Assembly (NCBI GenBank): GCA_001897525.1
Contig: MKTB01000002.1
Coordinates: 70,196 to 134,195 of the forward strand
Direction: 5' to 3'
Source of the DNA: Bacteroidetes bacterium 43-16
Lineage (GTDB): Bacteria; Bacteroidota; Bacteroidia; Chitinophagales; Chitinophagaceae
Length of the DNA stretch: 64,000 nt
The notes below the pieces were generated by a model. It saw only the letters and a list, made by a program, of their open reading frames with translations, had not been told where the DNA came from and searched no databases. Shown piece after piece: positions 2,029-15,095 of this stretch. The number at the start of each line of letters is the position of its first letter. Position 1 is the first letter of the stretch. Made by a program: the position numbers and the translations under genes.

Positions 2029-3120
2029 CTATTTGCTGATTTTTATAGAAGAGCGGTTTCCGCCCGGATCTTGAATACTTAAGATATAAGTCCCGCTTAC
2101 GAGGTGCGCCAGGTGATGGCTGCTACGCTTATTGTTTATATGTGCATGATACACTTCCTGTCCCAGTAAGTTGAGCACAGTCAGCTCAAATCCGTCCGTA
2201 TATTCTTGCTCAAAATTAATGTTCAGCTCATTGATTACCGGGTTAGGATATATGGATACAAAGCCAGAGGAAAATAAATCATTCACTGCTGTACCCTGAT
2301 TAGTGAGTTGAATTTGAAGAGAATCTTTTTTACTTGCATCAGCAGTAGAAATGGCTTTGGCCCATACAGTACCATTGGTTTGTGCCGTTACTAATCCACT
2401 GGCAGAGATCGCGGCTGTACCTGTACCCGGTACAATACTCCAGGTAACCGTTTGCGGCGCAGTAGCCGGCAGCACGGTGGCGGTCATTTGTAAGGTACCA
2501 GAATTACTTGTTATCGTTGCAGGAACACCGCCCTGTGTAGCCACAGTAACACTGTTAACTGTGGGGGTAGTAGACTGAACCGTTATGCTATAATCTTCCA
2601 CTTCTCCAAATCCTATCTGCGTTACATTGGTATTCCCCAAGCAAGGATCTCCGGCATTCATATTGCCCTGGTCCAGTATAATTCTCATCCGTGTATTACC
2701 CCCCAATGCAGTCGCAGGCGGAGTAATTGAAAGCGTATGAGGACCAGTTGTACCAACCAATGAAGCGACTAAATAACTTTCCCCTGAAGCTTCTAAAACA
2801 CCATTTTGATTCCAGTCAATAAAAGCATATACATATTGATCCGTGCTCGTACCCGGATTAATGGAAACACTCAATGTGTAGGCCGATCCCGTAGTAAGCT
2901 GCGTAGGGTTCACTGTGCTGGAAAAATCACTATAAGCTGTAGGACCTCCGGCAGAAGTGTTATTGATACTCCCAAGAGTTACATTGGTGATCCAGCTAAA
3001 AGAATTGTCCATAGAAAAGGCTGGCTGGCAATAGGACTGAGCAAAGGATTGGTGACTCATAGCACCGAAACCAATAGAACTTAATAGCGCTGCGTACAGC
3101 ACTTTAATACTTTTTTTCAT
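2029..3120 (-). CDS. T9SS-secreted GEVEDY protein with one BIG2 domain
   Basis: The protein has 363 residues. An N-terminal signal peptide ends near QSFAQ. A GEVEDY-type domain follows (about 28-180: IDWNQNGVLEASGE, NTRMRI, FGEVEDYSITVQ), then one BIG2 Ig-like repeat (about 188-275). The C-terminal type A T9SS sorting domain (about 283-363) shows IYPNPVINELNI, LLGQEVY, SGTYILSI and a basic SSIKISK end. It is the shortest of three paralogs here and shows the basic architecture without repeat expansion. The family is exported through Sec and then the type IX machinery; sorting domains are usually cleaved, leaving the protein surface-bound or released. A role in adhesion is inferred only. Confidence 0.88.
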   Translation of the reverse strand: MKKSIKVLYAALLSSIGFGAMSHQSFAQSYCQPAFSMDNSFSWITNVTLGSINNTSAGGPTAYSDFSSTVNPTQLTTGSAYTLSVSINPGTSTDQYVYAFIDWNQNGVLEASGESYLVASLVGTTGPHTLSITPPATALGGNTRMRIILDQGNMNAGDPCLGNTNVTQIGFGEVEDYSITVQSTTPTVNSVTVATQGGVPATITSNSGTLQMTATVLPATAPQTVTWSIVPGTGTAAISASGLVTAQTNGTVWAKAISTADASKKDSLQIQLTNQGTAVNDLFSSGFVSIYPNPVINELNINFEQEYTDGFELTVLNLLGQEVYHAHINNKRSSHHLAHLVSGTYILSIQDPGGNRSSIKISK

Positions 3121-3286
3121 ATTGTAAAAATTAAGTTTTTGAAAGTCTAAAATAAAGAAATAAATATATGTTTTTCATATCATAACCCTCTTTATTTTCA
3201 GCTTGTCAGAATCTCTTAATCCTCACAGGCATACACTTATTGCACAATATTCATATAACAAAAAAATCCTATCAAAAAACAACATA

Positions 3287-3483
3287 CTGTCCGACCTATT
3301 AGCGAAGCGCATGTCGAACAAAAGATATAGAGGATTTGAAATCCTGTTTAATTACAAGTCCGGAGATGCCTAAAGGAACACCCTGCTGTTCGATATGTTA
3401 GCGAAGCGCATGTCGAAGAAAAGATATAAAGGATTTAAAATCCTTTAAATTACAAGTCCGGAGATGCCTAAAGGAACACCCTG
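3287..3483. repeat. 98-99 bp intergenic tandem duplication with internal hairpins
   Basis: Copy A (3287-3385) and copy B (3386-3483) abut directly and are nearly identical. Both contain GCGAAGCGC, a palindrome around GGATTT/AAATCC (AGGATTT-G-AAATCCT in A, AAAGGATTT-A-AAATCCTTT in B) and end ACAAGTCCGGAGATGCC...ACACCCTG. Copy B also has TTCGA/TCGAA outer arms. No coding frame is evident. The composition looks like a dispersed intergenic element, and a short similar ACAAGTCCG stretch recurs near 55930. Confidence 0.75.
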
Positions 3484-3500
3484 AACGCTACACCCTTAAA

Positions 3501-3534
3501 TAAAAAAAGGGTGATACCTGCCTGGTATCACCCT
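3501..3534 (-). terminator. Rho-independent terminator of the 3541-5175 gene
   Basis: Read on the minus strand, a perfect 11-bp stem (AGGGTGATACC against GGTATCACCCT, plus-strand 3508-3534) is followed by a run of seven T. It lies immediately after the stop codon of the adhesin-like gene. Confidence 0.85.
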
Positions 3535-3540
3535 TAGGGA

Positions 3541-5175
3541 TTATTGTTTAATGATCTTTATTCCGGATCGATGTCCTCCCGGATCCTTAATACTTAAAAT
3601 ATAAGTTCCGCTTACCAGCTGTGCCAGCTGATGCGTAGTTTGTTTACTGCTCAACCGCGCGCGGTACACTTCCTGTCCAAGCAGGTTAACAACAGTCAGT
3701 TCAAAACCATCAGTATATTGTTGGTCAAAATTAATGACCAGTTCATTGATCACCGGGTTAGGAAATACAGATACAGCACCAGAGGAAAACAGGTCATTTA
3801 CAGCTGTACCCTGGTTAGTAATCTGGATTTGAAGAGAATCTTTTTTACTTACATCTGCAGTAGATACCGCTTTGGCCCACACAGTACCATTGGTCTGTGC
3901 CATCACTAAACCATCGGCAGAGATCGTTGCAGTACCCGTACCCGCTACGATACTCCAGGTTACCGTTTGCGTTGCCGTAGCAGGCAATACTGTTGCCATC
4001 ATTTGTAAAGTACCTGCATTGGTACTTATAGCAGCCGGAACACCACCCTGCGTGGATACATCTACGCTATTCACCGGTACTGCCTGGTTGCTGATGGTGA
4101 TTTGTAGAGAATCCTTTTTATTGACATCTGCAGTAGATACAGCCTTAGCCCATACCATTCCATTAGTCTGTGCGGTCACTAGTCCAGCCGCAGAGATGCT
4201 TGCAGTACCCGTACCCGGAACAATACTCCAGGTTACCGTTTGAGGGGCAGTAGCAGGAAGTACTGCTGCCGTCATTTGTAAAGTTCCTGCATTAGTGCTG
4301 ATGGCAGCGGGCACAGCACCTTGTGTAGCTACTGTAACACTGGTAACAGGAATCACCTGGTTACTGATCGTGATTTGTAAAGAATCTTTTTTACTTACAT
4401 CTGCAGTAGATACCGCTTTTGCCCAAACGGTACCATTGCCTTGTGCTGTCACTAATCCGCCGGCAGAGATCGTTGCAGTACCCGTGCCCGGAACGATACT
4501 CCAGGTTACCGTTTGAGGTGCAGTAGCAGGAAGCACTGTGGCCGTCATTTGTAAAGTTCCGGCATTGGTGCTTATAGCAGCCGGCACAGCACCTTGTGTA
4601 GCCACACTCACACTAGTCACTACAGGATTAGAAGACTGAACAGTGATGGTATAATCTTCGGTTTCTCCATATCCGTCCCACCAGAATTCTGTTTCTCCCA
4701 GGCAGGGATCCCCGGCATTTGTATCATCCCAGTCCAGCATAATCCTCATCCGGGTATTACCTGTTAAGGCAGTAGCCGGAGGAGTTATAGAAACCGTATA
4801 AGGTCCTGTACCGGAAACATCGGTAGCCACTACATATTTTTCACCGGCATTATCCAAAACACCATTCTGGTTCCAGTCAATAAAAGCATAGATATACTCA
4901 TCCGCATCCGGAACGATGGAAACACTCAGGGTATAAGAGGTACCAATGGTGACCTGTCCCGGGCTTACCGTAGCGGCAAAATTACTGTAGGCCGTTAAGC
5001 CTGCTCCCGTAGTATTATTGATCCCGGCAAAAGTCACATTGGTGATCCACTCATAAGTATTATCCTGCCAGGTGGAAGGTGTGCAATAAGTTTGGGCCGA
5101 AGCTTCCGGGCTTGCAAAACCAAATGCCAATACAGCACATAATCCTGCACTCAATTGTTTAAGTTGTTTTCTCAT
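3541..5175 (-). CDS. T9SS-secreted GEVEDY protein with three BIG2 domains
   Basis: About 544 residues. I chose the ATG at 5173-5175 (MRKQLKQLSAGLC), which gives a standard signal peptide; an in-frame ATG two codons earlier (5181) is also possible. After the signal peptide comes a GEVEDY-type domain (variant YGETEDYTITVQ), then three BIG2 repeats at about 90 residues each with SKKDSLQI ends, then a type A T9SS sorting domain (VFPNPVINEL, LLGQEVY, SGTYILSI, IKIIKQ). It is paralogous to the two genes to its left and differs mainly in repeat number. A TATATTTG box lies upstream at 5201-5208 and a strong terminator follows. Confidence 0.88.
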   Translation of the reverse strand: MRKQLKQLSAGLCAVLAFGFASPEASAQTYCTPSTWQDNTYEWITNVTFAGINNTTGAGLTAYSNFAATVSPGQVTIGTSYTLSVSIVPDADEYIYAFIDWNQNGVLDNAGEKYVVATDVSGTGPYTVSITPPATALTGNTRMRIMLDWDDTNAGDPCLGETEFWWDGYGETEDYTITVQSSNPVVTSVSVATQGAVPAAISTNAGTLQMTATVLPATAPQTVTWSIVPGTGTATISAGGLVTAQGNGTVWAKAVSTADVSKKDSLQITISNQVIPVTSVTVATQGAVPAAISTNAGTLQMTAAVLPATAPQTVTWSIVPGTGTASISAAGLVTAQTNGMVWAKAVSTADVNKKDSLQITISNQAVPVNSVDVSTQGGVPAAISTNAGTLQMMATVLPATATQTVTWSIVAGTGTATISADGLVMAQTNGTVWAKAVSTADVSKKDSLQIQITNQGTAVNDLFSSGAVSVFPNPVINELVINFDQQYTDGFELTVVNLLGQEVYRARLSSKQTTHQLAQLVSGTYILSIKDPGGHRSGIKIIKQ

Positions 5176-5200
5176 GACCATAAAATTTAAGGATACAATT

Positions 5201-5256: not shown

Positions 5257-6345
5257 TCAGGATGCCACATCATTTCTTTTGCGCCATATAACACCATCAA
5301 TCACATAATGGGTCAATTGAGGCACTGCCAGCAAGGGCACAATAAATCTGAGCCAGGAAGCCCGTACAGGTACACTTTTAAAATGATCAAATACCCCGAA
5401 CAATTCACCATTATCTTTCCAGACCCATACATCCCATAAACCTTCTTCCAGGAAGGCCAGCAGGAAAATGATGAGTAAAAAAAGGATAATGCCCGATGGC
5501 CTGTAGATCATTTTCCAAAAAGAAGAAGCCTTTGCATATGCCCTGTTTTCTTTCCTGGAGAATATCCAGATCAAAGCCATATAAGGAATACCATGAGACA
5601 CTACATTGAGCAGGGTAAAAGCCAGGTCGCCGTTAAAATACACAATGCCCATATACCAGGAAAAAAGGGTGCCGCTAATCACCAGTATCCTCAAAATATT
5701 TATCGTCTTAAACCTGGAGATGACGAATACTTCTTTCACCAGATAAACAGCAATCAATACAAAATATAAGATGGAAAAAAAAATCCGGACAGCAGGCAGG
5801 TCCCTCAGGATAAAATCACCTTCAACAAACCAGTTAAAATTTCTCGGTCCGCTGAAGTGCCAGTACAATATAGGGTAAATAGTCGCCGCATAGATCGTCA
5901 GCACATCAATGCGCTTGCACCAGGCAGGCACTGCCTGCTCTGCCCGGGAATAGAGCTTCATGATTCCATACTGCTGGCGGATGAAATGAAAAACGGCAAT
6001 ATAGGCCATCACGGTCCAGAACAAGGCCATGCTCACACTGCAGAGCATAATGCCAAAGAGCAGGGAGGCCAGGGGAACCAGGGTCATGGGCACTTTATAT
6101 TGCTGCCAGGCGCTTTTACTGAAATAAGTACGGAACAAGGTACTGTAGACGTGTGCTACATCAATAAACAGGATCAGCAGCACCCACCAGTAAAGCGGTA
6201 TATCTTTTACATCCCGGAACAATTGCGGAAATGCCGCAATAAAGGCCAGGCAAAGGAAAGGCGGCGCGATAATAAACAGCAGGTCTACCCAGGGCTTACC
6301 CAGCCAGGGCTTCGTAAAAGATATAGAGGACTTTAACTCACTCAT
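5257..6345 (-). CDS. Polytopic membrane protein, last gene of the polyamine-like operon
   Basis: The protein has 362 residues and about nine hydrophobic segments (near 20-42, 52-70, 85-120, 150-165, 185-205, 218-240, 285-300, 330-350). I do not recognise a named family with certainty. Polar motifs inside or beside membrane segments stand out: DVAHVYST (about 62-69), AVFHFIRQQYG (about 120), VVSHGIPYM and, at the C-terminus, LTHYVIDGVIWR. This spacing of histidines is reminiscent of membrane-bound oxygenase or desaturase proteins, but that is inference. Its start overlaps the stop of the FAD enzyme gene by 4 nt (ATGA), so it is almost certainly co-translated with the operon. Confidence 0.8.
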   Translation of the reverse strand: MSELKSSISFTKPWLGKPWVDLLFIIAPPFLCLAFIAAFPQLFRDVKDIPLYWWVLLILFIDVAHVYSTLFRTYFSKSAWQQYKVPMTLVPLASLLFGIMLCSVSMALFWTVMAYIAVFHFIRQQYGIMKLYSRAEQAVPAWCKRIDVLTIYAATIYPILYWHFSGPRNFNWFVEGDFILRDLPAVRIFFSILYFVLIAVYLVKEVFVISRFKTINILRILVISGTLFSWYMGIVYFNGDLAFTLLNVVSHGIPYMALIWIFSRKENRAYAKASSFWKMIYRPSGIILFLLIIFLLAFLEEGLWDVWVWKDNGELFGVFDHFKSVPVRASWLRFIVPLLAVPQLTHYVIDGVIWRKRNDVAS

Positions 6346-7949
6346 AAAAATCGTTTTACCTGCTTAGCCGCATTCAATCCCTGGTAAAAGGCTTCCTCGA
6401 AAATACTGATCCCGGCAATATCGGTATGTGCAAAATGTATTGTATCACCGATGCTTTGCTGTAGTTTTTTTCGGGTCTCGCCCCAGATCCATCCGGGTAA
6501 AGGTTGTATCATCGCATGACCCCATAAAGCAATGTCCACTTGTAACAATTGCTGCTCCAGGTTGGGATGCACTTTTACCAGGTCAGACAATACCTCGGCT
6601 ACCCATTCCTGGTGTTGCTTAGCCAGGGCTGCCTTCCGGGCTTCGGCATTTGAGCTGCCTTTAAGCGGTTTATAATAAGTAAGGTTTTTCACCGGCTGCG
6701 ATAGGCTGATCTTTTGATGACCGGCATCCACATAGCCGAGGCCATTGCCCTCATAGAGCACATTATCCCAGGAGAGGTCTACACCATTCCGCTCCTCCAG
6801 CCCTGCTTTCACTTTAAGATTGGCCACGATCCAGGGGCTGTATTCCATATGACTCTTTACCAATCCTACCCTTTCCGGCTCGCTACGGGACAGCATACGG
6901 GCATTTATAAACTGTGGCGCAGCTACAATACATTGATCACAGCGCAGGCCCAAGACCTTCTGCTGCTGCACATCAAAATAGCTGAGCTCCACTTTTCCGT
7001 TCATTTCTTCAATAGAGATCACCAGGCTATTGGTACGTATCTCTGCCTGCGTTCTATTACGTAATTGTGCTGCAAGAAAGCCGTTGCCTTCCTCCCAGGT
7101 CAGTACATCATCATAATGTGCATTAGCTGCCTTACCCTTCCTGGCGGCAAAGTAGTGGATACCGGCCCAGGCACTGATCAGCTCTATAGTTGTACCAAAA
7201 TCATCCAGGGTACAGTAATTGGCGTACCACAACAATTCTTTGGCAGTAAAACTTTCCTGCTCCAGCCATTGTTTAAAAGTTATGGTGTCCAGCCCGGTAT
7301 AGACAGGGTCACTACTGGAAGTGTCTATAGGAATGGCAAAGGCATCTTTCCCATCTTGGCCTTTAGCAAGGCGAAGGGCCGCCATCTTTTCAAAAAAACG
7401 GGCAAATTGCTGCCGTGCATCCTGGCCCAATCCATAATTGGGCACAATACCTTCCTGCCACTTGCCATTGATGTACAGCCGGTCTTCAGGATCATGGCAT
7501 AAGTAGAGTTCATTGTATACAGGCAGGTCATTTTCATAACCTGTGATCACACCGGCTTCTTCCAGGAAGGCGGTATAGTCTTTTAGTTCATTATTGGGAA
7601 TGGGCACATAGTGTGCCCCATAAGGAAATTTTGAATATTCATTACTGCCACTGGCAGCATTACCACCCGTATACGCTTCCAGCTCGAGCAGCACAAGATC
7701 ATCCACACCGGCTTTGCTCAGGTGCATCGCAGCAGATAGTCCGCTGATGCCCCCGCCTATGATCACCACTTGCTTTTCTTCAAACACTGTGGGTGCTTCA
7801 AAAGCCTTATCCCTCAGCATATGGCCGATTGCAGCACTTGCGCCTACGATACTACCGGGAATTTTTCTTTGCGCCCGGCAAGCCTGCATACCTAAGCCCA
7901 GCCCACCGGAAACGGTCATCATCCATCGTATAAATTGCCTGCGTTCCAT
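6342..7949 (-). CDS. Tat-exported FAD-dependent amine-oxidase-like oxidoreductase
   Basis: About 535 residues from the ATG at 7947-7949, one base after the upstream stop; the longer in-frame start at 7985 would overlap the previous gene by 35 bp. The N-terminus MERRQFIRWMMTVSGGLGLG is a twin-arginine-type signal, so the enzyme probably acts in the periplasm. A Rossmann FAD site follows (VVIIGGGISGLSAAMHLSKAG). The rest resembles the flavin amine oxidase/NAD(P)-binding superfamily, with a C-terminal segment near HFAHTDIAGISIFEEAFYQG that would complete FAD binding. Beside an aminopropyltransferase-like gene, an amine or polyamine substrate is a reasonable inference. It overlaps the next gene by 4 nt. 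Confidence 0.85.
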   Translation of the reverse strand: MERRQFIRWMMTVSGGLGLGMQACRAQRKIPGSIVGASAAIGHMLRDKAFEAPTVFEEKQVVIIGGGISGLSAAMHLSKAGVDDLVLLELEAYTGGNAASGSNEYSKFPYGAHYVPIPNNELKDYTAFLEEAGVITGYENDLPVYNELYLCHDPEDRLYINGKWQEGIVPNYGLGQDARQQFARFFEKMAALRLAKGQDGKDAFAIPIDTSSSDPVYTGLDTITFKQWLEQESFTAKELLWYANYCTLDDFGTTIELISAWAGIHYFAARKGKAANAHYDDVLTWEEGNGFLAAQLRNRTQAEIRTNSLVISIEEMNGKVELSYFDVQQQKVLGLRCDQCIVAAPQFINARMLSRSEPERVGLVKSHMEYSPWIVANLKVKAGLEERNGVDLSWDNVLYEGNGLGYVDAGHQKISLSQPVKNLTYYKPLKGSSNAEARKAALAKQHQEWVAEVLSDLVKVHPNLEQQLLQVDIALWGHAMIQPLPGWIWGETRKKLQQSIGDTIHFAHTDIAGISIFEEAFYQGLNAAKQVKRFL

Positions 7950-7950
7950 A

Positions 7951-9486
7951 TTATCGGTCTGTATAGTGCCGCCACTCCTGCTCAAAGTATTTGACCAGGA
8001 CCTGGTTATTCAGTTTATTGATCTCTAAAGTATCTTTAGGCAACATATCATTGGAGAAAGTCATCATCTGCAGAAACACAGGAGTACTGATATAGCGCAC
8101 CGGAACGGCAAATGTATCGGGAACGTTTAATGGTGCCTGCTGGCTGGCCATAATATAACCCCATTCTCCAAAAGAGGGTACAAAATTGTGGTAAGGCAGG
8201 GTCCGGAATCCGCAAGCCTGCAAGGTCTTGTTGACACACCAGAAACTCTTTGGAGCAACCAGCGGAGAGGTGCTCTGGATCACGATCACCGACAAGGGAT
8301 GCAACACCCGCTTCAATAAATTGTAAAAGGTATTGGAATATAATTTACCCAATCCGAAACTGGAAGGATCCGGGAAGTCAATAATCACACAGTCATAAAC
8401 GGTGCGGCTTTCTTTCAGCCAGATAAAAGCATCCTTATTTTCAATAGTAACTTTAGGCTGTTTCAGTGAGTTTTCATTCAAGCCGGCCAGCATCTTGTGT
8501 GAGCTGAACAGGCGGGTCATTTCCGGGTCCAGGTCTACCAGGTGAATGTTTTCCACGCCGGGATATTTAAGGATCTCTCTTACGGCCAGCCCGTCTCCAC
8601 CACCTAAGACCAATACATTTTTCACCTGCTTCACATTGCTCATAGCCGGATGCACCAGGGCTTCATGATAGCGGTATTCGTCCCGGGAGCTGAACTGCAG
8701 GTTACTGTTGAGGAACAAACGAAGTTCTTCCCTGTTTTTAGTAAGTACGATCCTTTGATAAGGGGTTGATTTGGCAAAGACCACTTTATCCTGGTAAGAA
8801 AGTTCATCACCGTAATCCATGATCTCATCTGCGAAAGCAAAGGCCAGGACCTGCCCGATCAATACAAGAAAGGCGCTGAACTTAAGCAGGGCCACTCTTT
8901 TGATCTGTTTCTGGAAGTAATAACACAGTATGATGCTGACCACAACATTGATGATGCCAAAGAAAAGGCTGGTGCGGATGAGGCCAAGATGTGGTACAAA
9001 CAGTAAGGGAAAAACAATAGAAGCCAGCAGAGCGCCGATGTAGTCAAAGGTGAATACCCGGCTCACCAGTTCATTAAAAGAAAGTTTGTCTTTAAGTATT
9101 TTTAAGAGCAAAGGAATCTCTATGCCGACCAGCGTACCTATGATCACGACCAGGAACAGGAGCAAAAACTGGAATCCGTCAATAACCGGAAACAGGACAA
9201 ATAACAAGGGCGCAGAGATGCCCCCGATAAGCCCTACCAGCAGTTCTACCTGCACAAACCAGGTCAGCAGGTCCTTATTAAAATATTTGGATAAGAAAGA
9301 ACCGATACCCATAGAAAACATATAAGTACCGATGATTAAACTGAACTGTGTAATGCTATCACCCAAAACATAGGAGGCCAGTGTCCCGGCGATCAATTCA
9401 TAAATAAGGCCGCAAACGGCAATGATCAGTACCGAAAAAAGAAGTAACCATTGTGTCCGGACCACCTGCTTCTGCGTACTATCCAT
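7951..9486 (-). CDS. Membrane-fused spermidine-synthase-like aminopropyltransferase
   Basis: The protein has 511 residues. The N-terminal half (about 10-225) holds six to seven membrane segments. The C-terminal half (about 235-480) is a spermidine synthase fold: STPYQRIVL, YHEALVHPAM, the nucleotide-binding GGGDGLAVREIL, VDLDPEM and IIDFPDPSS, which carries the catalytic Asp region. In this family decarboxylated AdoMet donates an aminopropyl group to an amine; here the catalytic domain is tethered to the membrane, so the acceptor may be membrane-associated. The N-terminus overlaps the DUF350 gene by 8 bp. Longer than soluble SpeE (about 280-310) because of the membrane domain. Confidence 0.87.
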   Translation of the reverse strand: MDSTQKQVVRTQWLLLFSVLIIAVCGLIYELIAGTLASYVLGDSITQFSLIIGTYMFSMGIGSFLSKYFNKDLLTWFVQVELLVGLIGGISAPLLFVLFPVIDGFQFLLLFLVVIIGTLVGIEIPLLLKILKDKLSFNELVSRVFTFDYIGALLASIVFPLLFVPHLGLIRTSLFFGIINVVVSIILCYYFQKQIKRVALLKFSAFLVLIGQVLAFAFADEIMDYGDELSYQDKVVFAKSTPYQRIVLTKNREELRLFLNSNLQFSSRDEYRYHEALVHPAMSNVKQVKNVLVLGGGDGLAVREILKYPGVENIHLVDLDPEMTRLFSSHKMLAGLNENSLKQPKVTIENKDAFIWLKESRTVYDCVIIDFPDPSSFGLGKLYSNTFYNLLKRVLHPLSVIVIQSTSPLVAPKSFWCVNKTLQACGFRTLPYHNFVPSFGEWGYIMASQQAPLNVPDTFAVPVRYISTPVFLQMMTFSNDMLPKDTLEINKLNNQVLVKYFEQEWRHYTDR

Positions 9487-9694
9487 GAATTGATGCGGCG
9501 ATAATAATAGCTAAAGATAAAAGAAAGAAACCGACGAGCAGGGCCGCGGCTTTATTTTGCTTTTCGAATACTTCTCTGAACAAATTATGCTTGGGCGTTA
9601 CCACTTCTATGATGATAAAAGCGACGATCAGGGCCACAATACCAATACCGGCAAACATTAATGAATTGATTACACTTGCTGTCATTATGATCAT
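9479..9694 (-). CDS. DUF350 family small membrane protein
   Basis: About 71 residues from the ATG at 9692-9694 (MIIMTASVINSL); a second ATG at 9685 is equally plausible. A longer frame exists but would run back into the preceding gene. Two hydrophobic helices (FAGIGIVALIVAFIIIEVV and AALLVGFFLLSLAIIIAASI) flank a polar loop TPKHNLFREVFEKQNKA, the usual half-unit of the DUF350 (YjfL-like) family. Members are known mainly from membrane-stress and polyamine-linked gene clusters; no biochemical activity is established to my knowledge. The stop overlaps the aminopropyltransferase start. Confidence 0.78.
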   Translation of the reverse strand: MIIMTASVINSLMFAGIGIVALIVAFIIIEVVTPKHNLFREVFEKQNKAAALLVGFFLLSLAIIIAASIHG

Positions 9695-9704
9695 TTTTAA
9701 TATT

Positions 9705-9887
9705 TTATTTATGATAAAAATAGGTCCTTCCAGTACGTGCATTACTGCCACCACCGGCATTGGTCTCATTGCTCTGCCAGGGCCATATAGAGAAGCCCAT
9801 ATAGTCGGCCCCGGCCTTTGCTCCGGTTATCCCTAAAACAAAGAGGATAAACCATTTCATTTTTTTTATAGTATCCAGGATCTTCAT
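9705..9887 (-). CDS. 60-residue exported small protein of the operon
   Basis: Sequence begins MKILDTIKKMKWFILFVLG with a hydrophobic segment (about 12-25) that serves as signal peptide or anchor, followed by AGADYMGFSIWPWQ and a glycine/asparagine-rich tail (NETNAGGGSNARTGRTYFYHK, in part). No recognised domain. It sits 16 nt after the DUF4178 gene and just before DUF350, where related clusters in other phyla often carry a small DUF4247-type protein; I cannot show homology. It may be a structural partner or a substrate of the surrounding enzymes. The position and spacing make it a convincing gene despite its size. Confidence 0.65.
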   Translation of the reverse strand: MKILDTIKKMKWFILFVLGITGAKAGADYMGFSIWPWQSNETNAGGGSNARTGRTYFYHK

Positions 9888-9903
9888 GGAATTGCTGTTT
9901 TAA

Positions 9904-11790
9904 TTAAGCCCATCTTTTTTGCTCTGTTGAATAATTGCGGATCATCAAAATGACCGGCCAGCTGATGATAATCAGTAAAGGAAACCAGAAATTCAGCGCC
10001 CTTTTTGAACCTGCCTGTGCTTTAACATATATGGTAGCGACTGAGCCCGCATCTGTACCTTTCTCCGCTTCTATGTTGAGCACATACTTTCCTTTAGGCA
10101 AGGCCGTAAACAAGTGATCATAGCTATTACTACCCTCCGACCAGCTTTCTCCACCATCATTCCCGGAATAGTATTCCAGGTCTTTACCGGCATTGTACTC
10201 CTGCCCCGTCCCTGTATTCACCAGTGAAAAGTCAAGAGATACCCAGTTGTTCTGCACATCAGAACTGATGTCCACCGACACATTCGTTCGGAAATTATTC
10301 AAATCAAAAGGTTCTGAGGTAATTTCTATGTTCTTTATCGTATCGGAAAAGCTGTAATTATTAGAAAGGACCACCTTTGAAGGCATACCCGTGAGATCGA
10401 TGGCCAGATGCACCAGGATAAACAGGATCACCGCAAGTGCCCCCGCAACGATCAGTTGCTGGTTGCTGAACTTAGAACCCGGCTCTACAGTACCCAGGCC
10501 TACTTTTTTAGGCAATTCAATTTTAGTGTCCTGTTGCAGCAATTCTTTACGGTCTACATACTCCCCTTTAAACCAGTAGTTATTTTTATCCCCGTCTCTT
10601 TCCAGGCTGATCAGGTAAGGAGGTGCAATATAATCATATGCAAAGCCCCTGCGATTATTCCCGGCAAAGTCATCAAACACATAGCCTTCTGCCCACAAAA
10701 GCTTAACCGTATAATCATTATAAAACCGGTAATGCCTATCGTCAAAATAGATAAAGTCCTGCCCGGGATTAGGTAATAAAGGAAACTCCATGGTTTCCTG
10801 TACCAGCATAAAGTTCCCGTTAAAGGCACTTAAGAAAGCAAAGCCCCCATCCGTTTCACAATACAGGGTAAACTCCTGCCATTGCGCATCCTCATTATCT
10901 TCTTTAATGGTAGCGCCAATGACTTTAAAGTCATCGCCCAGCAAATGCAGTTGCGTACCCAGGGGAATTTTAGTAGCTGAGTTATGGGTCAGCCTCATCA
11001 CTTTACGGTCCTTCTCCCAGCGCCATTTTTCAGTAAAACTGTTGAAGGTATTGCAATGCGGACAAACAAAATTCTTGACCAGCGGGAAGTAAGGGATCGT
11101 CACTTCTTTACCACAGGAAGCACAGTCTACATAATCTTTTTCATTGAAAGCAATAGACTGGCGCATACCTGAAAGTTCCAGCTCCTCCAGGCTTTCAACA
11201 GGTTCCTGCTTAAAGATCCGGCATTCTTTCCCGGCCAGCCATATCTCAATGTACTCTTCCCCGTTTTTACTTTGAAATAAGAATCTTTCCTCCGCGCCTA
11301 TCACCTCTGCGGCACTTTCTCCTTTGACATCAAAGCCCCAGAAATCGTCCAGCTGCACCAGCCTGAAGGTGCCCAGGCGATCGATAATAGTATCTTTAGT
11401 GGTCGAGGCCCTGCCTAAACGCTCATACAGGCCTTTGGTATTAATATCCGTAACCGGCGTTAACACGGTCTGGAAGCCATAAGACTCTTCCAGGAATTTC
11501 ACAGTACCGTCCTGCAGTTGCATGGTCCAGAAATTCAGGGAGGCATTTTTAAACACGACGACAAGCGCACCGCTAAGGCTAAAGCGCTGATCCCTGAAGC
11601 GCCCTGTAGTATCCTGTTGAAAACGGGAATACAGGGGTATTTTTCTTAGTTTTTGATTATTTTCAGCATGCAGATAAGGCCGGATACGATTTACCTGGCC
11701 ACAGGTACAACTGTAGTGCATGGCTTCCGTGCTTACCTGCCGGTAAGCGGCACTGCATTTCGGGCAGGTCAATGTCTTGGGTAGCTCCAT
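9904..11790 (-). CDS. DUF4178 zinc-ribbon membrane protein
   Basis: The protein has 628 residues. It opens with a zinc ribbon (C9, C12, C28, C30) and has a second Cys4 ribbon at about 222-245 (CASCGK...CPHC). Between and after these lie two DUF4178-like beta-rich segments (about 70-190 and 265-395, with ESAAEVIGAEERFLFQS and QEFTLYCETDGG typical of the domain). A membrane helix (LIVAGALAVILFILVHLAI) begins near 448, followed by an exported beta domain and a last helix (FWFPLLIIISWPVILMI). This suggests a cytosolic zinc/DUF4178 part linked to a periplasmic domain. Genes of this type accompany SpeD/SpeE-like and DUF350 genes. Five bases separate it from speD. Confidence 0.8.
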   Translation of the reverse strand: MELPKTLTCPKCSAAYRQVSTEAMHYSCTCGQVNRIRPYLHAENNQKLRKIPLYSRFQQDTTGRFRDQRFSLSGALVVVFKNASLNFWTMQLQDGTVKFLEESYGFQTVLTPVTDINTKGLYERLGRASTTKDTIIDRLGTFRLVQLDDFWGFDVKGESAAEVIGAEERFLFQSKNGEEYIEIWLAGKECRIFKQEPVESLEELELSGMRQSIAFNEKDYVDCASCGKEVTIPYFPLVKNFVCPHCNTFNSFTEKWRWEKDRKVMRLTHNSATKIPLGTQLHLLGDDFKVIGATIKEDNEDAQWQEFTLYCETDGGFAFLSAFNGNFMLVQETMEFPLLPNPGQDFIYFDDRHYRFYNDYTVKLLWAEGYVFDDFAGNNRRGFAYDYIAPPYLISLERDGDKNNYWFKGEYVDRKELLQQDTKIELPKKVGLGTVEPGSKFSNQQLIVAGALAVILFILVHLAIDLTGMPSKVVLSNNYSFSDTIKNIEITSEPFDLNNFRTNVSVDISSDVQNNWVSLDFSLVNTGTGQEYNAGKDLEYYSGNDGGESWSEGSNSYDHLFTALPKGKYVLNIEAEKGTDAGSVATIYVKAQAGSKRALNFWFPLLIIISWPVILMIRNYSTEQKRWA

Positions 11791-11795
11791 GGTCC

Positions 11796-12155
11796 TTATC
11801 TTTTTACTTTAACCAGGTCATGCACTACACCTCCGAAGTAATCCTGCAAAGCAGCAAAGAGCTGCTCTACTACCGCGTCGTTAACTCTCGAAAAATTGCT
11901 GAGGTAGATATCCATGTTCAGCAAAGCGTATTCGGGCCAGGTATGAATGGAAATATGACTTTCACTCAGGCATACTACTGCCGTAAAACCACCGCCTTCA
12001 AAATTATGGAACACAGAACCCAGATCTTTAAGATCATGCGCTGTTATTAATGCTTGTATTAATAAAGCAAAAGACTCGTATGTACTTAATTTATCCATTG
12101 CCACTTCTTTCAAAGTCGCCAGGATATGCAGCCCTTCTTTATAGATATTGCTCAT
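11796..12155 (-). CDS. speD: SpeD-like pyruvoyl-dependent decarboxylase, catalytic Cys replaced by Ser
   Basis: 119 residues, the size of the short bacterial AdoMet decarboxylases. It carries the self-cleavage motif LSESHISIHTWPE: E65-S66, with S66 expected to become the pyruvoyl group, and H71 in the place of the catalytic His. Twenty residues after S66, where characterised enzymes have the catalytic Cys (TCG motif), it reads IYLSNFSR, so the residue is S86. Family knowledge: SpeD decarboxylates AdoMet for spermidine synthesis, while some homologues have changed to ornithine or arginine decarboxylation. It heads the operon ending at 5257 and has its own -7 element. The gene symbol marks family, not proven substrate. 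Confidence 0.85.
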   Translation of the reverse strand: MSNIYKEGLHILATLKEVAMDKLSTYESFALLIQALITAHDLKDLGSVFHNFEGGGFTAVVCLSESHISIHTWPEYALLNMDIYLSNFSRVNDAVVEQLFAALQDYFGGVVHDLVKVKR

Positions 12156-12178: not shown

Positions 12179-12186
12179 CAAATGTA
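12179..12186 (-). promoter_or_regulatory. Candidate promoter (-7 TACATTTG) of the speD operon
   Basis: TACATTTG on the minus strand matches TAnnTTTG and lies 23 nt upstream of the speD ATG, in the only sizeable gap (55 bp) between the pterin dehydratase stop and speD. No perfect TTG -33 is visible. It suggests that the seven genes from speD onward can be transcribed separately from the sensor kinase unit. Confidence 0.5.
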
Positions 12187-12210: not shown

Positions 12211-12447
12211 CTATGCCAATAACGCTTCGATCTGGGTAGCCAGGGCATGATCTCTTTCAGTAATGGCATTGACATCATGAGAGAAAAGCTCTATCCTGAG
12301 CCGATTCCATTTATGCAACAGCATATCAGGATGATGATTGGCCTTATCGGCCAGCTGCGCAATGCGGAGCACCAGTTCTGCAACGGCTGTCTGATCTTTT
12401 AACTGGATATCCCAGACCAGTTTTCCTTCTGTTTCTTGATACGGCAT
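12211..12447 (-). CDS. phhB: Pterin-4a-carbinolamine dehydratase
   Basis: 78 residues from the ATG at 12445-12447; a TTG six codons upstream would overlap the regulator gene and is less likely. The family signature is clear: ADKANHHPD, then WNRLRIELFSHDVNAITERDHALA. The enzyme dehydrates 4a-hydroxytetrahydropterin in pterin recycling after aromatic amino-acid hydroxylation and can act as a dimerisation factor. The first His pair and the SHD motif that form the active site are present. No phenylalanine hydroxylase gene lies in the window. It follows the response regulator by 10 nt and is probably co-transcribed with the two-component pair. Confidence 0.85.
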   Translation of the reverse strand: MPYQETEGKLVWDIQLKDQTAVAELVLRIAQLADKANHHPDMLLHKWNRLRIELFSHDVNAITERDHALATQIEALLA

Positions 12448-12457
12448 AATCTTTATT

Positions 12458-13207
12458 TTAAGCAAATGAATTAATAAATGATTCTTTATAGGTGGCAGAG
12501 ACTTCTATCTCGCTGCCATCCTGCAATACAACATAGCCACCTGCACCTTTATGATACTTGGCCACGTGGTTGATGTTAATGATATGAGACTTATGTATGC
12601 GCACAAAAGGGTATTCCAGCAATTCCTCAAAATGCTTCAGGAAGCGGCAAACCATCTTTTTAGAACCGTCTTCCAGGAAGATGTCGGTAAAGTTGCCATT
12701 CCCCTTCAGGCGGATGATCTGGCGGTGATGCACCACCTCAAAGCCATCTATAGTAGGCAATATAAGTTTTTGATTATTGAAATCAACTTTTGAATTTTCC
12801 AGGAGGACCTTATTCCGCTCCAGGCTGTCTTTCTGCGCGATGGATTGGGTCACTTTATTCACCGCCAGTATCAGTTCCTCTATCGCCAGAGGTTTCAGCA
12901 GGTAATAAGCCGCGCTTTGGTTCAATGCCTTTAAGGCATACTCAGAATAAGCGGTTACGAATATCGTTTCAAAAGACAGGTCCTGGCATCCTTCCAATAC
13001 GTCAAAGGCATTGCCATAAGGCATTTCCACATCCAGGAACACCAGGTCGGGCTTTACTTCATTAATCATGGTTATCGCATCCTTTGCCTGGTGGGCCATG
13101 GCCACGACCTCCACCTGCGGGCAATATTTTTTCAGGTAGGCTTTGAGTGCATTGACCGCCGCCATCTCATCTTCTACAATCACCGTCTTAAGCGTGTTCA
13201 ATTTCAT
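12458..13207 (-). CDS. LytTR-family response regulator
   Basis: The protein has 249 residues. The receiver domain (1-125) has the acidic pocket VEDE, phospho-acceptor D59 in LVFLDVEMP, a Thr/Ser in FVTAYSEYALKAL and the KP pair in YYLLKPL. A linker leads to a C-terminal LytTR DNA-binding domain (about 145-245) with VRIHKSHIININHV. It is the partner of the histidine kinase whose end it overlaps by 20 bp. Such pairs are usually autoregulatory and may control the adjacent pterin dehydratase and polyamine-like genes, though no binding site was identified. Confidence 0.93.
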   Translation of the reverse strand: MKLNTLKTVIVEDEMAAVNALKAYLKKYCPQVEVVAMAHQAKDAITMINEVKPDLVFLDVEMPYGNAFDVLEGCQDLSFETIFVTAYSEYALKALNQSAAYYLLKPLAIEELILAVNKVTQSIAQKDSLERNKVLLENSKVDFNNQKLILPTIDGFEVVHHRQIIRLKGNGNFTDIFLEDGSKKMVCRFLKHFEELLEYPFVRIHKSHIININHVAKYHKGAGGYVVLQDGSEIEVSATYKESFINSFA

Positions 13208-15095
13208 AACTGTATTTTAAAATAGGTAAACTAATTTCGATCAATGTGCCCTGCCCGCCCGATGCAGAAAGGTCGGTGACCGTATATACAATGCCGGACT
13301 GGTACAATTGATTGAGCAGGGTAATACGCTCTTTCGTATTGGCCATGCCCAAAGATTTATGTTGCTTCTGATGGGCCGTTTTCAGAGCCATACTTTGCGC
13401 AATACCGATACCATCGTCCCTGATGCTGATCTGCAGTTGCTCTCCCTTCTTTTCAATCTTTAAGCTAAGCAAACCTTTATCTTGTTTATAACGAAGCCCA
13501 TGCCAGACGGCATTTTCCAGGAAAGGCTGGATCACCATATTGGGAACGGCAACTTCCATCTTATCAATCGCAGGGTCTACAATAATGTCATAGTTAAACT
13601 GGGTACTGAAGCGCTGGTACTCCAGAGACAGGTATTTCTCCAGGTGGCCCAGCTCTACGCCCAGTGGCACAAAATCTTTGCCCGAATGTTCCATCACCGT
13701 GCGCATCAGCGTGGAGTAGGAACTCAGGTATTTATTGGCCTTGATCTCATCATTCTCTGCGATGAACTGGTTCACACTGTTCAGGCTGTTGAACACAAAA
13801 TGTGGGTTCATCTCTCTTCTCAAAGATTGTAAACGGATCTTTTTGTTCCTTTTTAATATCGTATAATAGGCTTTAGCGATAAATACCAGCGACACCAAAA
13901 TGACCAGTGCTACCGCGATCAATAAATAATTATTCCTCCGGGTTTGCTCCAGCAGGGTAGCCTGCAGGGCCTTTTCTTCCTCCAGCTTCTGGATGCGGCC
14001 TTCTATCTCTTCAAAAGCTTTCATATCCAGCAGGCTGCTGTCCCTGGCGAGCAGCTCATCCAGCTTGTCCAGGAAGCCCATAGAGGCTTGCTGCGCCTTG
14101 GCCTGCCTGCCGGTATTATTGTACAGGTCCACTAATTGCAGCAAGGCATCTTTGGCCGGTTTGGTCAGGTGTAGCGATGTGGCCAGCTGATAAGCAGCGA
14201 GCAGGTTGCGCTCTGCAGCCGTATCCATCTTTTGTTGCGCATATAACATCCCTAACTGTGTCAAGGTATTGATCTTCAGCAGCTCATTCTTTGTACTGTC
14301 CGCAGCCGATAGCAGGTTTAATTGTAAGGCTATGGCCTCCTCAAATTTATTGTTTTGCACCAGGTCTTTAGACAAGTCACCGATCACTTTTTCGGCACTG
14401 GCTTTAGGCTGATCATCCAGGGCAATAGAACGCGACAGGGTCTTCACGGCTTCCTCCTGCTTATTCTGGAGCCTTTGCGTGACCGCCAGTTGATTTAAGG
14501 CATCAGACATTTCTACTTTCACCTGGGATACCCCTTTCTCTGAACGGGACAGCATCTCTACATTCCTGCGCGCAAATTCTTCTTTACGCTCCAGGTCATT
14601 CGTCTGCATCCTTTGCTGGTCATTTGCGTTCAGGCTTTTGGCCATCGGGTCTTCCTGGTTGGAAGCCGCTTTTCCATAGTTACCAATAGCCTCCTTTACC
14701 TTATTCTGCTCCTCCTGCACTTTGGCCAGTTTACGCTGCACCGTGGCCAGTTCCTCTTTCGAGCCGGAAGATTGATAAGCCTCTGCGGCACGCTTATAAT
14801 AAGTCTCGGCCTTTTGATACTCTCCTTTCCCCGAAAGATCATCGCCTATCTGAACAAAACTCCGGGCCGTTGCCTGATCGTCTACACCATAGCTCTGCTC
14901 AGCCTGTTTCGCTTTCTTATACAACTTGCTGTTACCCGCAGATTTGGCACCTGCTTTTTTATTAATGAATTTATCTTTCTCCGGCTCCGCCTGCACGGGT
15001 AAAGATTGGGCAAAAGCACTTAAGCTACTGCTCAGCAGTAACAGGTAAAGGATAAATAGATACAGGCTTTTAGGGCCAAGCTGTTTAAGCCGCAT
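13188..15095 (-). CDS. LytS-type sensor histidine kinase with TPR-rich sensor
   Basis: The protein has 635 residues. A signal peptide ends near SAFAQ, then a long alpha-helical periplasmic region (about 40-380) contains TPR-like repeats (AETYYKRAAEAYQSSG, AERNLLAAYQLATSL). A transmembrane helix NYLLIAVALVILVSLVFIAK (about 390-410) precedes a His-kinase domain of the LytS/YehU type: LRREMNPHFVFNSLNSV (phospho-His), then an HATPase region with NMVIQPFLENAVWHGL, RDDGIGI and GMANTKERI. It is a membrane sensor paired with the LytTR regulator. The signal is unknown. It is divergent from the SIMPL gene. Confidence 0.92.
   Translation of the reverse strand: MRLKQLGPKSLYLFILYLLLLSSSLSAFAQSLPVQAEPEKDKFINKKAGAKSAGNSKLYKKAKQAEQSYGVDDQATARSFVQIGDDLSGKGEYQKAETYYKRAAEAYQSSGSKEELATVQRKLAKVQEEQNKVKEAIGNYGKAASNQEDPMAKSLNANDQQRMQTNDLERKEEFARRNVEMLSRSEKGVSQVKVEMSDALNQLAVTQRLQNKQEEAVKTLSRSIALDDQPKASAEKVIGDLSKDLVQNNKFEEAIALQLNLLSAADSTKNELLKINTLTQLGMLYAQQKMDTAAERNLLAAYQLATSLHLTKPAKDALLQLVDLYNNTGRQAKAQQASMGFLDKLDELLARDSSLLDMKAFEEIEGRIQKLEEEKALQATLLEQTRRNNYLLIAVALVILVSLVFIAKAYYTILKRNKKIRLQSLRREMNPHFVFNSLNSVNQFIAENDEIKANKYLSSYSTLMRTVMEHSGKDFVPLGVELGHLEKYLSLEYQRFSTQFNYDIIVDPAIDKMEVAVPNMVIQPFLENAVWHGLRYKQDKGLLSLKIEKKGEQLQISIRDDGIGIAQSMALKTAHQKQHKSLGMANTKERITLLNQLYQSGIVYTVTDLSASGGQGTLIEISLPILKYSYEIEHA

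Follow-up and report, generated by a model that had tools for sequence, protein, structure and literature searches.

A conserved operon of Bacteroidota pairs a membrane-bound aminopropyltransferase homologue with a lysine-ended peptide, its candidate acceptor

The window analyzed here, a 64,000-nucleotide stretch of contig MKTB01000002.1 (positions 70,196 to 134,195, assembly GCA_001897525.1) from Bacteroidetes bacterium 43-16, carries at positions 5257-12155 an operon built around a homologue of the aminopropyltransferase SpeE fused to a seven-transmembrane domain (7TM-SpeE). The operon also encodes a homologue of the S-adenosylmethionine (AdoMet) decarboxylase SpeD, a 628-residue homologue of DUF4178 proteins, a 60-residue peptide ending in His-Lys (the HK peptide), a short DUF350 protein, a flavin amine-oxidase-like protein (FAO), and a polytopic membrane protein (POLY). 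An earlier note, made from the letters of the window, had described seven tightly packed genes with their own -7 element, and both descriptions hold. All seven frames were recovered on the minus strand. Calculated from their coordinates in the order speD to POLY, the first three gaps are 5, 16, and 10 nt and the fifth is 1 nt, and the genes overlap by 8 nt at the fourth junction and by 4 nt at the sixth. One -7-like element, TACATTTG, which we take to be of the Bacteroidota type, starts 31 nt ahead of the ATG codon of speD; the 150 nt ahead of each of the other six genes showed no such element (chance expectation of 0.041 per 150 nt). Four Pfam families scored above their cut-offs in the operon (PF02675, PF03994, PF01564, and PF01593), and the Pfam and NCBIfam scans gave no name for POLY, for the 60-residue peptide or, directly, for the 628-residue protein.

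Table 1. Features of the operon, with positions in the window.
Feature	Position	Strand	Remarks
speD-like gene	11796..12155	-	class-1b AdoMet decarboxylase fold; ESH, IYLSN
Promoter element TACATTTG, -7-like	12179..12186	-	
628-residue zinc-ribbon protein	9904..11790	-	homologue of double-DUF4178 proteins
HK-tail peptide, 60 residues, single transmembrane segment, end ...YHK	9705..9887	-	
DUF350 membrane protein, half length, 71 residues	9479..9694	-	PF03994
Transmembrane SpeE fusion, 511 residues: 7-transmembrane domain and aminopropyltransferase domain	7951..9486	-	NF002956
FAO, flavin amine-oxidase/dehydrogenase-like, 535 residues from the ATG at 7949	6342..7949	-	PF01593
POLY, 10-transmembrane polytopic protein, 362 residues	5257..6345	-	no match among solved structures

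The operon is a real, conserved unit, and the association of its genes is far from chance. Full-length 7TM-SpeE (E < 1e-90) was present in 26 of the 247 genomes sampled from the window's class, and any match at E ≤ 0.001 in 66. Thirteen of the 26, counting the window's genome, have the present operon type (type A), the SpeE identity of the other 12 being 52-58%. The order SpeD-DUF4178-DUF350-SpeE-FAO-POLY is intact in 11 of the 13, the exceptions being one locus without SpeD and POLY and one without POLY. At one of the 11 loci (L037, genome G057), several operon genes are frameshifted, owing to decay or sequencing error. POLY was found in 17 of the 247 genomes, every one of them within the 26 that have full-length 7TM-SpeE (p = 4e-20, a nominal value; many loci are closely related and do not represent independent cases). 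The distribution of 7TM-SpeE is therefore patchy within the window's own family: it was lacking in the genome sampled from the same genus, in three others of the family, and in the further family members of a phylum search. Of the 395 genomes in the phylum search, 29 had a match at E ≤ 1e-60, and the loci of 22 further genomes were taken from this search.

A POLY profile search retrieved at least 546 relatives, the best 80 of which define what we call the named loci. This set is unable to test whether POLY is optional, for which the class and phylum samples serve. The complete operon order was found at 59 of the 80 named loci. Eight others have no SpeD in the row, seven have no DUF350 match, two have SpeD downstream, one has a doubled DUF4178-peptide-DUF350 module, and three are cut or without SpeE. 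A random, unconserved association, which the earlier note had put forward as the outcome contrary to its reading, is rejected by these neighborhoods and by the 11 type A genomes with intact order. A further conserved neighbor was sought around 92 loci; the commonest protein cluster was present at 12 and the next at 9 (the clusters were left unnamed), and 10 of the 11 named loci with the former belong to Hymenobacter. In Solitalea agri (L082), the DUF4178-HK peptide-DUF350 module is present twice in one operon.

The 7TM-SpeE protein scored 671.5 bits against NF002956 (cut-off 472), and Foldseek returned 1uir/3anx as its best match. Residues that we take to line the donor side (GGGDG, D320, D352, D370, D373, Y273, and Q244) are retained, and the same motifs are found in eight SpeD-SpeE fusions that are presumably spermidine-producing. 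The loop that we take to contact the acceptor is changed relative to the eight fusions: TYPTG becomes SF-G through a two-residue deletion, several further positions are substituted, and the Glu of the Q-x-E-S motif is replaced by Thr. Retention of the donor side together with a changed acceptor loop supports the membrane-bound aminopropyl chemistry that had been proposed for the operon. In the AlphaFold2 model (mean pLDDT, the predicted local distance difference test score, of 89.6), six long helices of hydrophobic character make up the membrane domain, and one of them spans 54 residues (137-190). If this helix is counted as two, the model has seven transmembrane (TM) segments, and 7TM is likewise the term used for this SpeE domain in the text of Ravi et al. 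(2024; PMC11237479). Lys plus Arg content was higher in the predicted-inside loops of all 106 SpeEs counted (90 of type A, 7 of type B, and 9 of type C), the loop borders being drawn by hand on the same alignments. With seven TM helices, this bias would place the N-terminus inside and the catalytic domain outside, and we infer that the catalytic domain and the tails described below are both located on the outer side of the inner membrane. In the SpeE tree, the POLY-linked proteins fall into two separate clades (support of 0.92 and 0.95). L052 and L053 hold a convergent pair of 7TM-SpeE paralogues, one with POLY-FAO and the other with DUF350, which suggests separate partners.

The 60-residue frame is a true gene under strong constraint. 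Homologous peptides combine a single TM segment with a tail that is rich in Gly, Ser, Asn, and Arg and ends in His-Lys. All 101 SpeE-bearing loci of this operon type have a hydrophobic frame ending in HK at most 700 nt upstream from SpeE; the three named loci without SpeE (L121, L123, and L131) are outside this count and that of 132 loci given below. Applied to other ends, the same test gave HG at 70 loci, which is the end of DUF350, IH at 13, and fewer for the rest. Four of the 101 loci have no POLY in the stretch examined though their SpeE belongs to this clade, and two of these four have no FAO either. Among 87 start-defined peptides chosen for the HK end, the His codon before the final Lys is CAT in 50 and CAC in 37, and the other tail positions are highly variable. 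The charge of the N-terminal flank, including the N-terminal amine, exceeds that of the C-terminal flank in 74 of the 87, is lower in 4, and is equal in 9; the peptide is predicted to have its N-terminus inside and its tail outside. The HK end was also found in metagenome-assembled genomes labelled Verrucomicrobia, Leptospiraceae, FCPU426, Thiobacillus, and Melainabacteria (labels outside Bacteroidota, those of L091, L122, L128, L134, and L144, were taken as given, misbinning being possible). Among the plasmid loci, for which 6 of 13 matches were examined, it is present in a Novosphingobium plasmid, the NCBI entry being a 48-residue hypothetical protein, and in a B. stagnalis plasmid. At L044 and L085 the DUF4178 protein carries the peptide as a C-terminal extension that retains the final HK, and at L058 a tail with a GK end is fused to the DUF4178 protein.

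Across 7TM-SpeE loci of all types, a membrane-anchored protein ending in GK or HK was found at 125 of 132. Every one of the 101 loci of the present type has it, as do 24 of the 31 that belong to other types (L045-L058 and L194-L210); the total of 132 excludes the fragment L062 and three loci with soluble SpeD-SpeE (L059-L061). A script identified 113 of these proteins, and 12 tails were read by eye (L055, a locus truncated by the contig end, and L066, L070, L087, L090, L105, L142, L190, L203, L204, L207, and L210). As a background, 9 of 941 proteins of at least 100 residues encoded outside the clusters end in GK or HK, and 135 end in K. The tails of the other types are often lysine-ended and belong to lipoprotein-like or TM proteins (GSGFGK, SGGFGK, STRGK, RGGK, PESGK, and similar). 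The lysine end accompanies the 7TM-SpeE family across very different anchors. In a type B cluster (L053:4808-5650), a potassium-channel-like protein has an HK end.

An exported lysine end has a precedent in the Braun lipoprotein, which is joined to peptidoglycan. By this likeness, and with tails that are predicted outside, the terminal lysine might be an attachment point, to peptidoglycan for example, or a docking signal for a metal or a flavoenzyme, SpeE acting elsewhere. We regard this as improbable: no further gene, such as one for a transpeptidase, is common to more than 12 of the 92 neighborhoods (by clusters left unnamed), and the lysine end tracks 7TM-SpeE whatever the anchor.

The argument for the tail as acceptor comes mainly from a comparison with E. 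coli K-12, in which YgiB ends in MGG and YjfM in WGG and the adjoining YgiC and YjfC have the RefSeq product name peptide--spermidine ligase. Work by Pederick et al. from 2023 is said to deal with YgiC and YjfC as the peptide-spermidine ligases of E. coli. As in the operon of the window, a polyamine-type enzyme is encoded there next to a protein that looks exported and has a Gly/Ser/Arg-rich tail, and the yjf operon also has DUF350. The E. coli pairs differ in combining an ATP-grasp ligase with a Gly-Gly end, whereas an aminopropyltransferase is combined here with a Lys end. Two 7TM-SpeE loci (L047:7496-9242 and L194:6882-8625) resemble YgiB-YgiC in that a Gly/Ser/Arg-rich membrane protein with a YGG end accompanies an ATP-grasp-like gene; the ATP-grasp-like gene of L047, the locus scanned, is homologous to glutathionylspermidine synthase (PF03738). 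Gly ends are thus found next to a ligase, whose reaction requires a carboxylate, and Lys ends next to a transferase, whose reaction requires an amine, which argues for the lysine tail as a specific acceptor candidate for membrane-SpeE fusions. An amine arm is likewise carried by a lysine side chain in the deoxyhypusine and hypusine of eIF5A. This is an analogy only, as the donor proposed here is decarboxylated AdoMet (dcAdoMet) instead of spermidine, the arm has three carbons instead of four, and the target is a membrane peptide.

The acceptor could instead be a membrane lipid or a small amine, with the lysine-tailed protein acting as a sensor, a scaffold, or a stabilizing subunit of the transferase. 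Most other parts of the operon are membrane-linked, fusions of the tail to DUF4178 are compatible with a structural role, and earlier authors left the target open in the text of PMC11237479. We nevertheless consider this alternative unlikely, if worth serious attention, since it leaves unexplained both the final Lys at 101 of 101 loci and the GG ends of four tails beside ATP-grasp genes of the spermidine-ligase type.

A membrane-tethered but otherwise ordinary spermidine or norspermidine pathway would agree with the NCBIfam label of SpeE (polyamine aminopropyltransferase) and with the operon SpeD and SpeE being the sole copies found in the window's genome. Gene content predicts a second polyamine route in each of the 13 type A genomes: a DS/SpeY-like gene in 11, nspC in G129, where the carboxyspermidine decarboxylase scored above its cut-off, and a SpeD-SpeE frame elsewhere in G149. 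The window's genome has the DS/SpeY-like gene, and no component of the carboxyspermidine route scored above cut-off in it. Ordinary soluble spermidine, named in the earlier note as the other outcome contrary to its reading, is therefore unlikely as the sole product. Together with the altered acceptor loop of SpeE, this makes the ordinary pathway quite improbable, and a passage of PMC12803844, which cites Li et al. (2019) on the point, states that bacterial homologues of a fungal membrane-SpeE fusion are uninvolved in spermidine and spermine synthesis. Matches to the SpeA family were set aside as non-discriminating: a canonical arginine decarboxylase scored above cut-off in 0 of 28 genomes, and weaker matches, all below cut-off, occurred in 28 of 28, with or without the operon.

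SpeD of the window passed PF02675 (69.6 bits, cut-off 25) and did not reach the equivalog TIGR03330 (69.0 bits, cut-off 75.65). The Ser that forms the pyruvoyl group (ESH) is retained, and the column that we take to be that of the usual active-site Cys holds a Ser (IYLSN). In this operon type the column is Ser in 10 of 12 proteins (one Cys, one incomplete) and in 66 of 70 (four Cys); at loci of other types it is Cys in 6 of 6. Each of the 13 type A genomes has a single SpeD. Five named genomes are without the operon SpeD (L075, L098, L105, L106, and L133), and all five have elsewhere a SpeD-SpeE fusion that holds the Cys, which indicates that supplying dcAdoMet is probably the job of the operon SpeD. 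The genome of L128 was the sole one of 11 searched in which no SpeD was found. Hymenobacteraceae-type genomes without operon SpeD (L146-L150) encode a fused SpeD-SpeE protein. The Ser at the Cys position of most members would also agree with SpeD having become an ornithine or arginine decarboxylase, and functional shifts of this kind are described for SpeD in a passage of PMC10407285. We hold such a neofunctionalization to be very improbable, given the canonical fusion in the five genomes that lack the operon protein and the requirement of SpeE for dcAdoMet.

FAO scored 46 bits against PF01593 (cut-off 19.8). Its N-terminus has an RR pair followed by a Cys, features that are Tat-like (twin-arginine translocation) and lipobox-like, respectively, and the window protein is probably exported by this route. 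A later Cys is present in 81 of 90 homologues and a strict RRx[FSW] motif in 66; Tat export of every FAO, which we had first assumed, was weakened by the latter count. TatC was found in 13 of 13 type A genomes. The remote relatives of FAO are flavin amine oxidases. Spermidine dehydrogenase SpdH (7d9j) is one weak match among many that score as well, and the best stretch of its likeness covers about the first 110 residues, from the signal region into the FAD (flavin adenine dinucleotide) domain. The AlphaFold2 model of POLY (mean pLDDT of 90.6) has 10 TM helices, and its conserved intramembrane His, Glu, Asp, and Gln residues include the invariant columns H65, H120, H251, E300, E301, H346, and D350. 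Foldseek returned no match for POLY in the Protein Data Bank (PDB) at E ≤ 0.001 (best 0.78), the POLY profile had no PDB match at E ≤ 1, and in Pfam the window protein had no match and no family was matched by more than two of 49 members. POLY would be a family of membrane proteins with no relative found among the solved structures.

In the 628-residue zinc-ribbon protein, the part homologous to double-DUF4178 proteins is followed by a TM segment, a beta-rich segment, and a second TM segment. It had no match to DUF4178 (PF13785) in the Pfam scan of the window; homologues above the DUF4178 cut-off are the L066 protein (53.4 bits), both proteins of L091, both of L144, and the larger protein of L098, and the small proteins of L098 and L138 are below it. 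Some genomes encode the family as a single fused gene, and other lineages as a pair of neighboring genes. At L099 (5147-6409), the DUF4178 protein ends in FYFHK although a separate HK peptide comes after it. The DUF350 protein scored 46.9 bits against PF03994 (cut-off 26) and covers only positions 3-66 of the 133-position profile, the first half. The seven named loci without a DUF350 match retain the HK peptide.

Taken as a whole, the operon is best explained, in our tentative judgment and at a little less than even confidence, by a dcAdoMet-based modification of the envelope in which a terminal lysine is aminopropylated and FAO and POLY process the product. The operon would make and spend dcAdoMet on this modification and not on free polyamines. 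SpeD would produce dcAdoMet in the cytosol, and 7TM-SpeE would move its aminopropyl group onto the HK peptide, at the epsilon-amine of the C-terminal lysine, tail and catalytic domain both facing outward from the inner membrane. The resulting mark would be deoxyhypusine-like, with a three-carbon aminopropyl arm. DUF4178 and DUF350 may keep the peptide and the transferase together, and at a subset of loci FAO, with POLY where present, may oxidize the modified amine further or cross-link it. Where the earlier note had left the product and membrane target open, a target, the C-terminal lysine tail, is now proposed; we infer this acceptor, as we do the membrane side, the role of DUF4178 and DUF350, and the FAO/POLY step. 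The wider proposition, which we advance with somewhat greater reserve, is that 7TM-SpeE proteins are extracytoplasmic aminopropyltransferases acting on the C-terminal lysines of membrane-anchored tail proteins encoded alongside them, that together with YgiC/YjfC-type ligases acting on Gly-Gly tails they make up a general system for placing polyamine-type C-terminal marks on envelope proteins of bacteria, and that FAO and POLY process the mark in the present operon type. If true, it would define a new class of protein modification at the cell envelope, account for the recurrence of DUF350 and DUF4178 with polyamine enzymes, and tie both to YgiC and YjfC.

Several observations weigh against this reading. 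The identity of the acceptor is supported by sequence patterns and analogy, and a conserved terminal lysine could instead be used for docking or peptidoglycan attachment. The count of seven TM helices depends on the split helix of the model; with six, the catalytic domain would be cytosolic. dcAdoMet is itself cytosolic, and an outward-facing SpeE would need its delivery by the 7TM domain or another carrier. The activity of SpeD is uncertain given the Ser at the active-site Cys position, and 24 of 90 FAO homologues lack the strict RR motif, so that Tat export cannot be assumed for every one of them. A GK or HK tail is missing at 7 of the 132 loci: L045 and L046 have SpeE alone, L047 and L194 have the YGG tail, L056 is on a 7.4-kb contig, L209 ends in NRVK, and L048 is the seventh. 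The L196 candidate is questionable, as it overlaps a DUF4178 frame. The script also picks up chance open reading frames, with VL ends at 36, LK at 23, and KK at 23 of the 132 loci, and at the 31 loci of other types it gave GK at 18, HK at 3, and, next, AL at 10; the case for the other types therefore rests on the reading of proteins more than on the count. Finally, the HK peptide occurs without FAO and POLY at L190 and L193, for which reason a strict linkage between them was dropped, and FAO occurs without POLY at L184, L185, L188, L205, and L206. FAO and POLY are thus accessory.

Clusters of SpeD, a major facilitator superfamily or 7TM-SpeE fusion, and DUF350 were reportedly described by Li et al. 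in 2019 (Biochem J). The text of Ravi et al. (2024; PMC11237479) describes PspA group-2 operons with 7TM-SpeE, DUF350, DUF4178, and a novel lipoprotein and, in other operons, an AdoMet decarboxylase with a polyamine oxidase. The operon of the window is like these clusters in having 7TM-SpeE, DUF350, DUF4178, and often SpeD and in being, by prediction, independent of polyamines, a property of such sets that is already in print. It is unlike the group-2 operons in having FAO and POLY and in that its tail is a tiny HK peptide. The PspA-CesT/Tir dyad is not a standing part of it, no further family being present in more than 12 of the 92 neighborhoods (again by unnamed clusters). The phrase "C-terminal lysine" does not occur in the main text of PMC11237479, and in a limited literature search we found no earlier description of the set of FAO, POLY, and HK tail. 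Beyond what is in print, the present analysis contributes a candidate acceptor in the lysine-ended tail, a topology that is predicted to face outward, and the extension of the set by FAO and POLY.

Upstream from the operon, the window encodes at 12211-15095 a pterin carbinolamine dehydratase, a LytTR response regulator, and a TPR/histidine-kinase-like protein, as judged by eye. Downstream, at 2029-5181, lie genes on the minus strand for two proteins with Big_2-like repeats, and scanning identified in the larger one GEVED and Big_2 domains and a sorting tail of the type IX secretion system.

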